Source: a virus
IMG/VR virus record: IMGVR_UViG_3300022540_000472
Location: 1-64,000 of that record
Reading direction: 5' to 3' (one strand)
Length of the DNA: 64,000 nt
The translations under genes were made by a program, and so were the position numbers. Positions within the stretch are counted from its first letter, which is position 1; every line of letters starts with the position of its first letter. The notes beneath the pieces were generated by a model. That model did not search any database. It worked only from the letters and a program-made list of their open reading frames with translations, and had not been told where the DNA came from. Shown here piece by piece: positions 212-42,931 of this stretch.

Positions 212-1348
212 TTGAAAATTATAAAGATGATAACAATAAAAATAACCGATCTTTACGAGTTACTACGAACACAAACTAAACAAGAATGGAAAGAAATTGC
301 AGTTAAGTTCTATAATGAACGAGTCATTCATTTAGAAAAAACCGAAGAAGAAATTGAAGCAGAACGGATTGCCGAAGAAGAAGCACAGTGGCAAGAAATT
401 TTACTTGCCCTTCTTGAAGGCGTTGATGAAAAACAAGTTCCAATTTATAAAGCAATACTTGAGAATCAGCATAGGTATCTCAAAGAGCACGAAGAATCAA
501 GCCAATGTCAATCTTCTAAACTTCCAATAATTCCAATTGTTCGTCGTATATTATCAGACATGACAATAATGGATTTGGTTGGTGTTCAGCCAATGGTTGG
601 TCCTGTTAGTTTAGTTTATAAATTAAGAATTACCACCAAAGAAGAAACAGAGGAAGGGACAAAACTTTCTCTTGAAATTGTTTCTCAAGCTGTTGAAGCT
701 GGTTCACGTAAATTAAAAGCTGCTTGGACATTAGAAGCTGAGCAAGACTTAAATGCTATGCATGGCCTTAACATTGAAGCTGAATTAACAGCAGCGTTGG
801 CACAAGAGGTAGCTTACGAACATAATACAGAATGGTTGAATAGATTATCTTCGATTGCTAATCAATCATCATATGAAATTGATGACAATGCTGAATTAAT
901 TATTGCAATTAATAAAGCAGCAAATGATATTGCTAGAAACACAAGACGTGGTGCTGGCAATTGGATTGTCGTTTCACCTAGTACATTTGCTAGAATTCAT
1001 GAAGGAGCAACTCGTAATATGTCTCCTCGTGATATGTTTGTTGCTTCAGAAAAACCAGCAATCGGTACAGATTTAAAATTTGTTGGTACATTAAACAAAA
1101 CTATGAAAGTTTACGTCAATGTATATGCAGATAACGATGAAATATTAGTTGGGTACAAAGGAACAAGCGAAGTCGATACTGGTTTAATTTTTTCTCCATA
1201 TGTTATGCTAATGCCTTCTGGTGTTGTAGTTAATTCCAAAACTTTTCAACCACTAATAAGTTTAATGACTCGTTATGGTGTTGCTACGGATGATGATTCT
1301 CATAAGTATTATGAGAAGATAAAAATAACATATAAGGATAAGAAATGA
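212..1348 (+). CDS. T4 gp23-like capsid protein (paralog)
   Basis: The middle and C-terminal parts match the gp23 major capsid/gp24 vertex family. Visible hallmarks are a VGVQPM segment near residue 122, the SRKLKA..TLE..QDL..MHG block near residues 167-187, and a C-terminal FSPYV.LMPSGVVVNSKTFQP stretch followed by a MTRYG motif. At 378 aa it is much shorter than T4 gp23 (521 aa). The first 100 residues are charged and helical and do not resemble the usual capsid N-terminus. It starts at TTG, chosen because AAGGAG lies 8 nt upstream. It sits alone between tRNAs, away from any head module in view. It may be a vertex-type protein, a diverged second capsid copy, or the only capsid gene of a deviant lineage. 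Confidence 0.75.
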   Translation: MKIIKMITIKITDLYELLRTQTKQEWKEIAVKFYNERVIHLEKTEEEIEAERIAEEEAQWQEILLALLEGVDEKQVPIYKAILENQHRYLKEHEESSQCQSSKLPIIPIVRRILSDMTIMDLVGVQPMVGPVSLVYKLRITTKEETEEGTKLSLEIVSQAVEAGSRKLKAAWTLEAEQDLNAMHGLNIEAELTAALAQEVAYEHNTEWLNRLSSIANQSSYEIDDNAELIIAINKAANDIARNTRRGAGNWIVVSPSTFARIHEGATRNMSPRDMFVASEKPAIGTDLKFVGTLNKTMKVYVNVYADNDEILVGYKGTSEVDTGLIFSPYVMLMPSGVVVNSKTFQPLISLMTRYGVATDDDSHKYYEKIKITYKDKK

Positions 1349-4102: not shown

Positions 4103-4180
4103 GCTCTCGTATCCCAATTGGCAGAGGAGGCTAGTTCAAACCTAGTTAATGTGTGAGTTCGAATCTCACCGAGAGTACCA
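4103..4180 (+). tRNA. tRNA with CAA anticodon (Leu by codon)
   Basis: Acceptor GCTCTCG/CGAGAGT with a G1-T72 wobble, anticodon arm GCTAG-TTCAAAC-CTAGT (anticodon CAA), T-arm GTGAG/CTCAC and encoded CCA. The variable loop is short, unlike normal class II leucine tRNAs, so charging identity is uncertain. Confidence 0.8.
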
Positions 4181-4764: not shown

Positions 4765-4769
4765 GTGTC

Positions 4770-5125
4770 ATATACGAATTATAAATGTACCAGAAACATA
4801 AGAACCTGGCGAAAGCAACCCCATAGTGGGTCTAAGTCGAGTCAATGGTAATCCGAAAGGACCCGTTGAACGTAGGATGAAGTTTGGCAACTGGGTCCTT
4901 TAAATGCATATCGTGCTGACATTTATATTTAAACACTAATGACGGTTACTTTTTGTGCACCAAGGTAATTCGTGTCGTGTTAGATTCCGATGCATTACGT
5001 AGGGGAGGAGAAATCCGTAGAACCGATTATCGTAGGAAGCACTCACGAGCTTACAGTGGGATCATCGTTATGGGATGGTGAATAGGAATCCGTTGGTGCG
5101 ACCAAACAGACCACCAACAATTATT
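4770..5125 (+). ncRNA. Candidate structured RNA A
   Basis: No open frame, but many helices. AAAGGACCC-GTTG (near 4856) pairs with CAAC-T-GGGTCCTTT about 20 nt on. GCACCAA (4957-4963) pairs with TTGGTGC (5093-5099) across about 130 nt. A competing local hairpin GTTGGTG (5092-5098)/CACCAAC (5112-5118) precedes a T-rich stretch and could end transcription. No known family was recognised. It may be an extension of the preceding mRNA or a separate RNA. Confidence 0.5.
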
Positions 5126-5147
5126 TTGATTTAATTTTAAAAACCTG

Positions 5148-5176
5148 TTGACTTTTAAGTTGATAAGTGATATAAT
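5148..5176 (+). promoter_or_regulatory. Sigma70-type promoter for large RNA B
   Basis: TTGACT, 17-nt spacer, TATAAT. The expected start near 5184 opens the large non-coding region. Confidence 0.85.
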
Positions 5177-5183
5177 AATTAAA

Positions 5184-6115
5184 TCGGTTGGGAAACCAAT
5201 CAAAGAGTTTTAAAGTTTAGCCGCATGGGGTAGATAACCTCTGGTAACAGAGCGAAAGGGCAGTGATCTAACTATAGCTGTCGCCATTAGGATTTATCCG
5301 AAGTGGACATCCATGCAAGCCAAACCTCCCCAGCGATGGGGTCTTCACTTACAAGTGCGGTGGAGATAACTATGAAGTAAGTGCATAGGAAAGAGTTGTT
5401 ATTTAAGGGCCTGCAAAGGTAACCCAAGTAACAAAAGAGTAACAGGTGGTGCTGACCTCTATGTTAAACCAGCTTGCGAATAGGTAGGGTAAATGGTAGG
5501 AATGTTGTTCGAGGTGCAAACAAGAGCTTCATTCCAAACTAGTATGTATTCCCTTAGGGGTGCATATGTTAGGTTTTTGGGTTGATTCGTCAATCCATAT
5601 AAATCTTGAAAGTTGACTGAGTTCCGGTAGGATAAAGGTATTTGATGTAGTGTATTTTGTAACTCAAAAGGTTACGAAGCATTAGTCCGCACACATCGAG
5701 GTTAGTTATGATATAGCTCATTGTAGAGCATCTGCTTTTGGTGCAGAAGGCGGTTGGTTCAAATCCAACTATCTTTTAAAAAACGCAAAGTTGCGGACAG
5801 TAGTAAGTTAAAATGGCTTAATCCTTCACACTTATGTGAATGAAGGCATCCGAAACTCGCGAGGCGGAGGATGTTAAAGTAGAGTCGCACGGAAGACGTT
5901 AGCGCGTCATTGCAGTCCTAATAAGATTGACGGTAGATAAAACTTTGAGTAGCTTGCTATGATATGAGAATCGCCACTCATTAAAAAAGGCAGTCATGTT
6001 TGTAAACTCTGTTTGACGGAGTGGATAAGAGTAGAACTCTAGGTGTCGCAACTGATGAGATAATGACTCGAAAGTACAAATGGTAAAGCTATAATCTCAG
6101 GCTTACAACAACTAA
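5184..6115 (+). ncRNA. Large ornate structured RNA, GOLLD/ROOL-like
   Basis: About 930 nt without a coding frame, behind its own strong promoter. Nested helices are easy to find: GCATGG (5223-5228)/CCATGC (5311-5316) encloses TAGAT/ATCTA and a CTCTG-GTAA-CAGAG hairpin; CACTTAC (5346-5352)/GTAAGTG (5377-5383); TGAGAT (6056-6061)/ATCTCA (6094-6099). A 7-bp helix GTCCGCA (5685-5691)/TGCGGAC (5792-5798) encloses a tRNA-like domain. Size, phage setting and embedded tRNA resemble GOLLD RNAs, which are known from phages and lake metagenomes. Family assignment is by appearance only. The bS21 gene starts about 16 nt after the end, so the RNA may also be the leader of that message. Confidence 0.65.
5707..5776 (+). 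tRNA. tRNA-Gln(UUG)-like domain inside RNA B
   Basis: D-arm GCTC/GAGC, anticodon arm CTGC-TTTTGGT-GCAG (anticodon TTG) and T-arm GTTGG-TTCAAAT-CCAAC are intact. The acceptor stem has only about 4-5 pairs and no CCA is encoded. A perfect 7-bp outer helix locks it into the larger RNA. It may be a structural tRNA mimic rather than a working tRNA. Confidence 0.7.
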
Positions 6116-6131: not shown

Positions 6132-6362
6132 ATGTTAAAAGTAAGAGCAACAGTAAAACGAAAGCACGAAAATGAAAGTTTTGAATCATTGATGAGACGT
6201 TTCAAGCGTTCATGTGAAAAAGCTGACATTCTATCAGAAGTCCGAGAACGAGAGTTCTTTGAACGACCAACTACAAAACGAAAACGTAGCAAAGCTGCTG
6301 CCAAGAAACGAGAACAAAAACGAGTTTCTGGCGATAAAACTAAATTTAAAAGATTATATTAA
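6132..6362 (+). CDS. rpsU: Ribosomal protein bS21
   Basis: 76 aa with the bS21 signature: [10 protein letters not shown] (residues 22-31), [22 protein letters not shown], and a basic tail. bS21 binds the 30S platform near the anti-Shine-Dalgarno end of 16S rRNA and affects mRNA choice. Phage copies are known and are thought to steer host ribosomes. A short N-terminal extension ([11 protein letters not shown]) replaces the usual MPVIKVR start. It lies directly after large RNA B and ends in a strong terminator. Confidence 0.93.
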
Positions 6363-6386
6363 AAAGATGCTAAGGCATCTTTTTTC
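6361..6386 (+). terminator. Rho-independent terminator after bS21
   Basis: Stem AAAAAGATGC (6361-6370)/GCATCTTTTT (6375-6384) with a TAAG loop and further T. It overlaps the bS21 stop codon. Confidence 0.88.
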
Positions 6387-6389
6387 TTT

Positions 6390-9418: not shown

Positions 9419-9966
9419 TGATTATTAATAAAACAAATAACTTTATTTTCGTTCATGTTTACAGAACAGGTGGAAGTAGTATTGATAGATCGTTTGGTGG
9501 AACTACAAATGGAATGCCAACACATACTAAACTTGAAGAAGTTCCAAATTGGGAAAAATATTTTTCTTTTGGTGTTATTAGAAATCCATGGGATAGGACA
9601 GTTTCTTCTTACAACTACTTAACTACGAAAAAACAATTTACAGGAACTTTTTTTGAATATATACATATGTTTGCCGAAGGTAGATTAAAAACAGCAAAAA
9701 AATACGCTCAACATGATATGGTTAAAAATTGTTCCTATGTTATGCGATTCGAGTATTTACAAGAAGATTTCAATGAAGTGTGTAAACTAATTGGTATTCA
9801 ACCACCAAACCTTCCTCATGTATGGAAAACGGAACACAAGCCTTACACAGAGTTATACACAGAAGAAATGAAACAAATTATTGCAGAAGCATCATCTGGT
9901 GATGTCGAAGAGTATGGTTTTTCTTTTGAAGGAACAGCTACAAAAAATGTAGGTGACAAACGATGA
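9418..9966 (+). CDS. Sulfotransferase
   Basis: 182 aa. FVHVYRTGGSSI (residues 11-22) fits the 5'-phosphosulfate loop and RNPWDRTVSSYNYL (residues about 57-70) the 3'-phosphate-binding motif of PAPS-dependent sulfotransferases. It would transfer sulfate from PAPS to a carbohydrate. The loop has R where many enzymes have K. It overlaps the next glycosyltransferase by 4 nt. An APS-kinase-like gene at 15581-16009 could supply PAPS. Confidence 0.8.
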   Translation: MIINKTNNFIFVHVYRTGGSSIDRSFGGTTNGMPTHTKLEEVPNWEKYFSFGVIRNPWDRTVSSYNYLTTKKQFTGTFFEYIHMFAEGRLKTAKKYAQHDMVKNCSYVMRFEYLQEDFNEVCKLIGIQPPNLPHVWKTEHKPYTELYTEEMKQIIAEASSGDVEEYGFSFEGTATKNVGDKR

Positions 9967-16350: not shown

Positions 16351-16426
16351 GTTCAGTTAGCTCAGTGGTAGAGCCGAAGACTCTAAATCTTTGTGGTCGA
16401 GGGTTCGAACCCCTCACTGAACACCA
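16351..16426 (+). tRNA. tRNA with amber anticodon (CUA)
   Basis: Acceptor GTTCAGT/ACTGAAC, D-arm GCTC/GAGC, anticodon arm GAAGA-CTCTAAA-TCTTT (anticodon CTA), T-arm GAGGG/CCCTC and encoded CCA. The cloverleaf is complete. CTA reads the UAG stop codon. The loop is the same as that of E. coli supF. The amino acid cannot be told. Confidence 0.85.
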
Positions 16427-42069: not shown

Positions 42070-42507
42070 ATGTTCAAAGGATTGATATTTTTGTTGTTTT
42101 TGTTTAGTACCTCTGCAGTTGCGGTTGATTACGCAGCTATGGTTAAACAAGAAGGTAATGCTCTTGTTCTATCTGTCGGAGGAGAACGTATTGCATCTAT
42201 TGATGAATATGGACTCAAGTCGAAGAAAGTACAACAACAAATACTTGATAGAGCTGTAAAGCAAGTAGATTTTTGTGCTACAAAAGGTCGGTGGGGTAGT
42301 TCTCTCGCTGATGAAGCAAAAGATAAAATCGGTAATGTAAAATTTCATATAAATCGTTTATATGAGATGACAAAAGATATCAAGATTCCACGATATATGA
42401 TCGTTGATAATGAACGAATGATACGAGAAGCATACAGACATGGTTATAAAGACCATTATCAATTTGGAGTGCAAGTTATAAAGGATTGTCTAGTTAATGG
42501 ATTTTAA
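42070..42507 (+). CDS. Secreted or periplasmic hypothetical protein
   Basis: 145 aa with a signal peptide (residues 1-18, cleavage after AVA). The mature part is helical and basic with two cysteines (near residues 71 and 141). AGGGAGAAGG ribosome site. No family recognised. Confidence 0.6.
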   Translation: MFKGLIFLLFLFSTSAVAVDYAAMVKQEGNALVLSVGGERIASIDEYGLKSKKVQQQILDRAVKQVDFCATKGRWGSSLADEAKDKIGNVKFHINRLYEMTKDIKIPRYMIVDNERMIREAYRHGYKDHYQFGVQVIKDCLVNGF

Positions 42508-42510
42508 TTG

Positions 42511-42539
42511 TTGACTTTTTAGTCTCTTTGTTATATAAT
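42511..42539 (+). promoter_or_regulatory. Sigma70-type promoter of tmRNA
   Basis: TTGACT, 17-nt spacer, TATAAT. A TATAAATA box follows at 42541-42548, so both promoter classes may act here. Confidence 0.82.
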
Positions 42540-42545
42540 TTATAA

Positions 42546-42888
42546 ATAGATATATCATTGTATGAAAGTAATGAAATAGGAAGGTAACACGCGGGTTCGA
42601 ATCCCGCCTTCTCCACCAAAAGCATTTTATGCGGCAGCAAAGTTTTAGTTTAGCGACTGAAAAATGGTTAGAATGAAAAAATTAGCCCGCCTAACCAGAA
42701 TGCTTCTGATGGGGATGACTTGGAATCGACTATCGACTGAAAGATTACTGGACAGTGCGTCAAGTTGACCGACGTAAAAAGGGCAAAAAACTATAATTGC
42801 AAATGACGAAAGTTATGCATATGCAATGGCTGCCTAAACAGCAATAGCCATTACGGGGTTGATAAAACCTGGCAACAGAATTATCATT
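42546..42888 (+). ncRNA. ssrA: Circularly permuted (two-piece) tmRNA
   Basis: The acceptor piece comes first: T-arm GCGGG-TTCGAAT-CCCGC (42591-42607), CTTCTCC and ACCA ending at 42618. After a 92-nt linker with its own hairpins, the 5' acceptor strand GGGGATG (42711-42717) and D-region CTTGGAATCGAC follow. The pairing keeps the G3-U70 pair needed for alanylation. The tag frame 42799-42837 encodes ANDESYAYAMAA and a stop. No T-arm follows the tag, so the gene is permuted and must be cut into two RNAs. It needs RNase P for the 5' end of the coding piece. Confidence 0.92.
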
Positions 42889-42889
42889 A

Positions 42890-42912
42890 GGGTAGCTTCG
42901 GCTGCCCTTTTT
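42890..42912 (+). terminator. Rho-independent terminator of tmRNA
   Basis: GGGTAGC (42890-42896) and GCTGCCC (42901-42907) with a TTCG loop and T5. Confidence 0.92.
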
Positions 42913-42931
42913 ATTGCCTGTCATTTCTTCA

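Follow-up and report, generated by a model that had tools for sequence, protein, structure and literature searches.

Locus and identity of the GOLLD RNA

The window, i.e., the whole stretch of 64,000 nucleotides that was analyzed, is part of a 92-kb virus record and contains a gene for a Gp23 major capsid protein (212-1348, profile match) and tRNAs at positions 4103, 4273 and 6390. Along its plus strand, a promoter, a GOLLD RNA of about 920 nt, a gene for ribosomal protein bS21 and a likely terminator follow one another. The promoter is sigma-70-like (TTGACT-17 nt-TATAAT, 5148-5176, + strand, 11/12 matches), with an extended -10 element (TG before the -10), and transcription is therefore predicted to start at about position 5183. 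The GOLLD RNA as a whole (5184-6105, + strand, about 922 nt) was delimited using Rfam for its 3' domain and covariation for its 5' domain, and its start was deduced from the promoter site, not mapped. No open reading frame of at least 50 amino acids was found on the plus strand between 4764 and 6132, and the fold of 946 nt has an energy of -266.8 kcal/mol, compared to -240.2 (sd 7.2) for shuffled sequences (z of -3.7, for a single sequence). An earlier reading made from the letters and their open reading frames (hereafter, the sequence-only reading) had described a promoter-driven non-coding stretch with many helices, and these results agree with that description. Approximately 380 nt of non-coding sequence precede the GOLLD promoter (4765-5147), for which a search for relatives produced short weak matches only; a second structured RNA at 4765-5150 was considered and rejected (fold z of +0.46 against shuffles, without an Rfam match).

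The bS21 gene (6132-6362, + strand, 76 aa; PF01165, 60.4 bits, E of 1e-16) lies just downstream of the RNA, where the sequence-only reading had placed it, and a Shine-Dalgarno-like stretch, AAAAAGG, precedes its start. A likely intrinsic terminator, with a 10-bp stem, a TAAG loop and a U tract, is located at 6361-6389 (+ strand, fold of -10.1 kcal/mol); it is absent from the list of the consensus scan, the stem extension of which consumes the U tract. Judging by these signals, bS21 and GOLLD are probably carried on one transcript in the window.

A covariance search with 4227 Rfam families, proposed by the sequence-only reading as a check, matched the GOLLD family (RF02032) over the entire model (positions 1-416 of 416) at 5642-6103 (+ strand), with 178.9 bits and E of 1.2e-48; the gathering cut-off is 150 bits, and the model spans the conserved 3' domain only. 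No ROOL match was detected in the window by the same search, either at the gathering threshold or at E<=5. The resemblance to "GOLLD or ROOL" seen earlier is thus resolved in favor of GOLLD, and the end of the model at 6103 is close to the 3' end of 6115 assigned at that time.

The 5' domain (5184-5641, + strand) lies beyond the Rfam model. In the alignment of the window with three other loci (L129, L139 and L142; mean column identity of 65%), the consensus structure includes 105 pairs, 61 of which have both partners changed in one or more of the sequences, and the alifold energy is -88.3, compared to -12.6 (sd 4.2) for column-shuffled alignments. As judged from this four-sequence covariation, the 5' half, which covaries strongly in relatives, belongs to the GOLLD RNA. 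The linker of the 3' domain is closed by a pseudoknot helix with the strands GTCCGCA (5685-5691, + strand) and TGCGGAC (5792-5798, + strand). This is the perfect 7-bp helix that the sequence-only reading had noticed around a cloverleaf; because the closing strand of a hairpin (5690-5697) lies next to its 5' strand, it is a pseudoknot and a feature of GOLLD, located outside the tRNA. The helix has at least 7 bp in 16/16 GOLLDs from different phages, with sequences that are mostly different, and when partners were swapped between phages, the observed pairing sum was reached in 0/20000 permutations. The covariation in related phages, named earlier as another check, is thus found in both the 5' domain and the linker helix.

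The traits of GOLLD seen in the window include a structured, less conserved 5' region ahead of a conserved 3' region, a variable 3'-domain linker, enclosed in this RNA by a covarying helix, and a phage setting near tRNAs, as is frequent for this family in phages and prophages. Positions 5184-6105 (+ strand) are, with near certainty, a complete GOLLD RNA.

The tRNA-like domain of the linker

The strands of the linker helix are separated by 100 nt, 71 of which form a tRNA-Gln(UUG)-like domain (5707-5777, + strand) that was recognized by ARAGORN as Gln(ttg) and by the Rfam tRNA model with 54.7 bits. The sequence-only reading had reported such a cloverleaf, without CCA and with a poor acceptor stem, and we observe the same: in the acceptor stem, TATGATA/TATCTTT, U faces U at 1-72 and 3-70, and the stem is followed by T-AAA instead of CCA. 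Thus, of the traits of functional tRNAs, the domain has the cloverleaf with anticodon and T arms but not the paired 7-bp acceptor stem. The cryo-EM structure of GOLLD env-38 is a closed 14-mer cage that encloses the linker (nt 497-538 of 833), which is disordered (PMC12286853); the linker of the window RNA occupies approximately nt 519-609 of 922. The same paper notes that some GOLLD linkers carry phage tRNAs; therefore, a tRNA in this place is not itself new, and the window RNA is one more GOLLD of a kind already reported.

We collected relatives using patterns that combined the GOLLD hairpin with a T-loop, which identified 15 and then 69 contigs. RF02032 matched 49/50 of the new tRNA-linker records searched, 47 of them above the cut-off, and most of the other pattern contigs as well. 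When the T-loop requirement was dropped, the scan found nine tRNA-sized linkers, eight of them in loci with a known tRNA; the remaining one, in L142, contains a tRNA-like domain as well. Three cultured phages, Sinorhizobium phage Phosso, Phaeobacter phage MD18 and phage DSS3_MAL1, have a GOLLD with a linker tRNA, whereas the tight pattern with the tRNA had no matches in bacterial and archaeal genome contigs. The linker tRNAs of MD18 and DSS3_MAL1 (L154 2585-2658 and L155 2584-2659) are annotated in those records as ordinary tRNA-Arg, and the surrounding GOLLD is unannotated; caution is advisable because annotation tools label GOLLD linker domains as working tRNAs. In another clade of 119 GOLLD loci, collected by a 3'-end pattern, ARAGORN found no linker tRNA, a strict T-loop motif was present in 0/103 loci with enough upstream sequence, and five looser T-loop matches were chance-like. 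With more than 100 GOLLDs of another clade lacking it, the linker tRNA is unnecessary for GOLLD function in general.

Using one procedure, we compared 57 distinct linker tRNAs (36 clusters at ~80%) to free tRNAs drawn from the fetched GOLLD loci (245 clusters), with the acceptor register for the pair statistics set from the T-arm. The embedded tRNAs were selected by the GOLLD hairpin and the T-loop only; hence, the conservation of the T-loop is no evidence, as it was in the search pattern, which did not include the anticodon arm and the inner acceptor. The fractions of Watson-Crick pairs at the outer acceptor positions 1, 2 and 3 were 0.31, 0.50 and 0.50 for linker tRNAs versus 0.77, 0.87 and 0.88 for free tRNAs, whereas the inner pairs 4-7 were the same in both. 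An acceptor with 7/7 Watson-Crick pairs was found in 0/36 linker clusters versus 81/245 free clusters (3/36 linker clusters if G-U is allowed), and CCA was present in 1/36 versus 168/245. Conversely, the anticodon stem was fully paired (5/5) in 30/36 linker versus 181/245 free clusters, and U33 was present in 33/36 versus 226/245. The few linker tRNAs that keep CCA are those of L184 and L163/L174; the one in L184 is a nearly canonical tRNA-Gln, which fits a recent capture. Constraint has been removed from the amino-acid end of the linker tRNAs only. Descriptions of such regularities were not found in the literature searched, outside of which lay the original 2009 description of GOLLD.

Nearly identical cage bodies can also hold different tRNAs. 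The bodies of L168 and L173 are 98-99% identical; their linker tRNAs are 74% identical and have the anticodons TAG and CTT. The linker tRNAs of L127 and L137 differ in seven positions, including two swapped T-stem pairs and one anticodon base, with the remaining two differences outside the acceptor, anticodon and T stems; these changes, with compensatory swaps in the T stem, would keep the tRNA fold. The mean number of U per anticodon is 1.69 in linker tRNAs versus 1.00 in free tRNAs of the same loci (p of 1e-7, an optimistic value because the linker clusters share ancestry and are incompletely independent lineages). Lys and Asn anticodons account for 11/36 linker versus 23/318 free tRNAs, and Arg-UCU for 6/36 versus 5/318. 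Some linker tRNAs have no U-rich anticodon, e.g., Leu-CAG and Gly-UCC.

Several other RNAs were observed in the window and its relatives. A CUA (amber) anticodon occurs in the linker tRNAs of L170 (oriented 9821-9892) and L161, and another CUA tRNA, this one free, lies just past bS21 in L170. The window contains a tRNA with a CUA anticodon at 16351-16426 (+ strand; "Pyl" in ARAGORN); the TAG recoding that it brought to mind was dismissed, since 5/54 long ORFs end in TAG and the extensions are short, giving no sign of it. A phage-encoded permuted (two-piece) tmRNA is located at 42507-42928 (+ strand) of the window, with the tag ANDESYAYAMAA (RF04321, 113 bits). Permuted tmRNAs of the RF04321 type are present in L138, L139, L154 and L155, and RF00023 tmRNAs in L131/L132/L134; thus, phage tmRNAs and tRNA-linker GOLLDs co-occur. 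The phage contig L137 has a sub-threshold match to archaeal-type RNase P RNA at 798-1046 (- strand; 54.1 bits versus the gathering cut-off of 84).

Possible roles of the linker tRNA

The sequence-only reading had offered, as an alternative, a giant leader for bS21, i.e., a cis-acting RNA that regulates the translation or transcription of this gene. The part of it that stands is the probable shared transcript: no terminator-like site was found in the 27-nt gap between GOLLD and bS21, and the likely terminator comes after bS21. The order is conserved in the closest relative, L170 (75% identity over 481 nt of the 3' domain), in which sigma-70-like promoters (TTGACA/TATAAT-like sites read upstream of the GOLLD), a GOLLD with a linker tRNA (CUA), bS21 and a tRNA are arranged as in the window. 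However, bS21 was found in the fetched flanks of 0/119 GOLLDs of the other clade and of none of the other tRNA-linker loci except L170 and L209, and in L209 it precedes the GOLLD hairpin by about 1 kb instead of following it. No GOLLD match was found for the bS21 relatives L002-L004. A ribosomal-protein leader is consistently associated with the gene it regulates, and GOLLD is not; because almost all other GOLLDs have no bS21 nearby, GOLLD as a family is no bS21 leader, and we consider this function very improbable for the window RNA. The gene order is also relevant to another explanation, in which the tRNA is an attached scaffold or ligand holding a ribosome, a tRNA-binding protein or an assembly partner in the cage or at its rim, with the co-transcribed bS21 in the same translation-related role. 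Ribosome binding by GOLLD has been reported from pull-downs, the cages are spacious enough for big cargo, and OLE RNA is proposed to sequester RpsU (PMC12286853); the order common to the window and L170, and a bS21 match above the cut-off somewhere in 12/38 GOLLD phage records, are in line with such a role. Nevertheless, bS21 adjoins very few GOLLDs, and a ribosome handle gives no obvious preference for U-rich anticodons or for frequent change of isotype, so that we regard a scaffold as unlikely.

If the domain were a working tRNA-Gln, excised from the linker and used in decoding, its recognition by ARAGORN and Rfam would be expected; no other tRNA-Gln was found in the window, where CAA is the more frequent Gln codon (416 versus 108 CAG), and the tRNA-Arg annotations of DSS3_MAL1 and MD18 treat their linker domains in this way. 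The mismatches at 1-72 and 3-70 and the missing CCA contradict this, as do the lack of a full Watson-Crick acceptor in all 36 clusters and the variation of the anticodon between near-identical cages; moreover, excision would cut the cage RNA. A decoding role is thus highly unlikely, and maturation of the linker tRNA very probably does not take place. Alternatively, the domain could be a neutral relic, with tRNA genes of the island recombining into a permissive linker and decaying there as tolerated filler. GOLLD is often found within tRNA islands, the near-intact, CCA-bearing copy in L184 looks as it would after a recent capture, and more than 100 GOLLDs do without a tRNA. However, the decay is limited to acceptor pairs 1-3 and CCA, with pairs 4-7, the anticodon stem and U33 matching free tRNAs, the T-stem swaps between L127 and L137 are compensatory, and the isotype composition of the linkers is unlike that of the neighboring free tRNAs. 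We consider neutral decay possible but rather doubtful. The pattern of the linker tRNAs, as seen in the comparison with free tRNAs, argues against both a decoding tRNA and plain decay, and its presence in dozens of related phages suggests a bait rather than a working tRNA.

The bait, the explanation that we favor over the others, would function as follows. A phage with a gp23-like capsid protein has a GOLLD gene with its own promoter, probably transcribed together with bS21, and, by homology to the solved GOLLD, the RNA would assemble, as a 14-mer, into a closed cage that contains the linker. The tRNA-derived domain, which takes up nearly the whole linker, was probably captured from a phage tRNA island. 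With the outer acceptor pairs and CCA unmaintained, RNase P processing, CCA addition and aminoacylation would all be inefficient on this domain, and without RNase P cutting the cage RNA would stay in one piece. The elbow and the anticodon arm, which are maintained, would be the part seen by anticodon-reading proteins; the cage may present or sequester many uncharged anticodon arms and thereby bind a host factor that recognizes this part of tRNAs. Among such factors, an anticodon nuclease of a defense system is the leading candidate; the bait would divert it from working tRNAs. Such a bait fits both the U-rich bias and the variation of the tRNA between near-identical cages. Some anticodon nucleases have a preference for U-rich anticodons, including those of Lys, Gln and Asn: Cas13a cleaves tRNAs with U-rich anticodons, among them those for Lys and Gln (PMC11042736), Lys(UUU), Thr(UGU) and Asn(GUU) are among the targets of AriB, and PARIS is inhibited by extra phage tRNAs of the AriB-target kinds (PMC12409363). 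Counting against the bait, a linker in a closed cage may be unreachable by a nuclease unless the cage opens; the linker tRNAs with anticodons poor in U, the few that retain CCA and the many GOLLDs lacking a tRNA also speak against it. The entire chain, including the role of a non-processable, exchangeable tRNA bait, is a tentative proposal that we would call a serious possibility, short of probable. A broader version, in which GOLLD is a phage counter-defence platform, with a constant body, an exchangeable bait matched to the anticodon nucleases of the host, and co-transcribed bS21 protecting or replacing ribosome function, is speculative and, on balance, improbable. The regularities of the linker (dead acceptor, intact anticodon arm, U-rich anticodons and tRNAs that differ between closely similar cages) point to a specific class of function for GOLLD, and hypotheses on this role are testable in the cultured phages DSS3_MAL1, MD18 and Phosso, all with a linker-tRNA GOLLD.

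Comparison with known RNAs

The window RNA and GOLLD env-38 both contain the conserved 3' domain over the full model and a divergent structured 5' domain, and share a length of about 920 nt, a variable linker at the equivalent place and a phage setting with tRNAs nearby. The window RNA differs from env-38 in that its linker is a tRNA-like domain, compared to a short disordered loop, and in that bS21 is directly downstream. ROOL is likewise a large ornate, cage-forming phage RNA found near tRNAs; the window has no ROOL match in the Rfam search, and its RNA corresponds to GOLLD in both sequence and secondary structure. OLE is another RNA of this large, ornate type, for which a connection with RpsU (bS21) has been proposed, whereas the window has no Rfam match to OLE, and its link to bS21 is one of gene order only. 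A parallel to the proposed bait is provided by phage tRNAs that counter anticodon nucleases, such as those of T5 against PARIS AriB (PMC12409363): here as there, anticodon arms are encoded by the phage, and the isotypes overlap the targets of the nuclease. Such nuclease-countering tRNAs are whole and free, whereas the domain in the window is fused in a large RNA and has a broken acceptor end.
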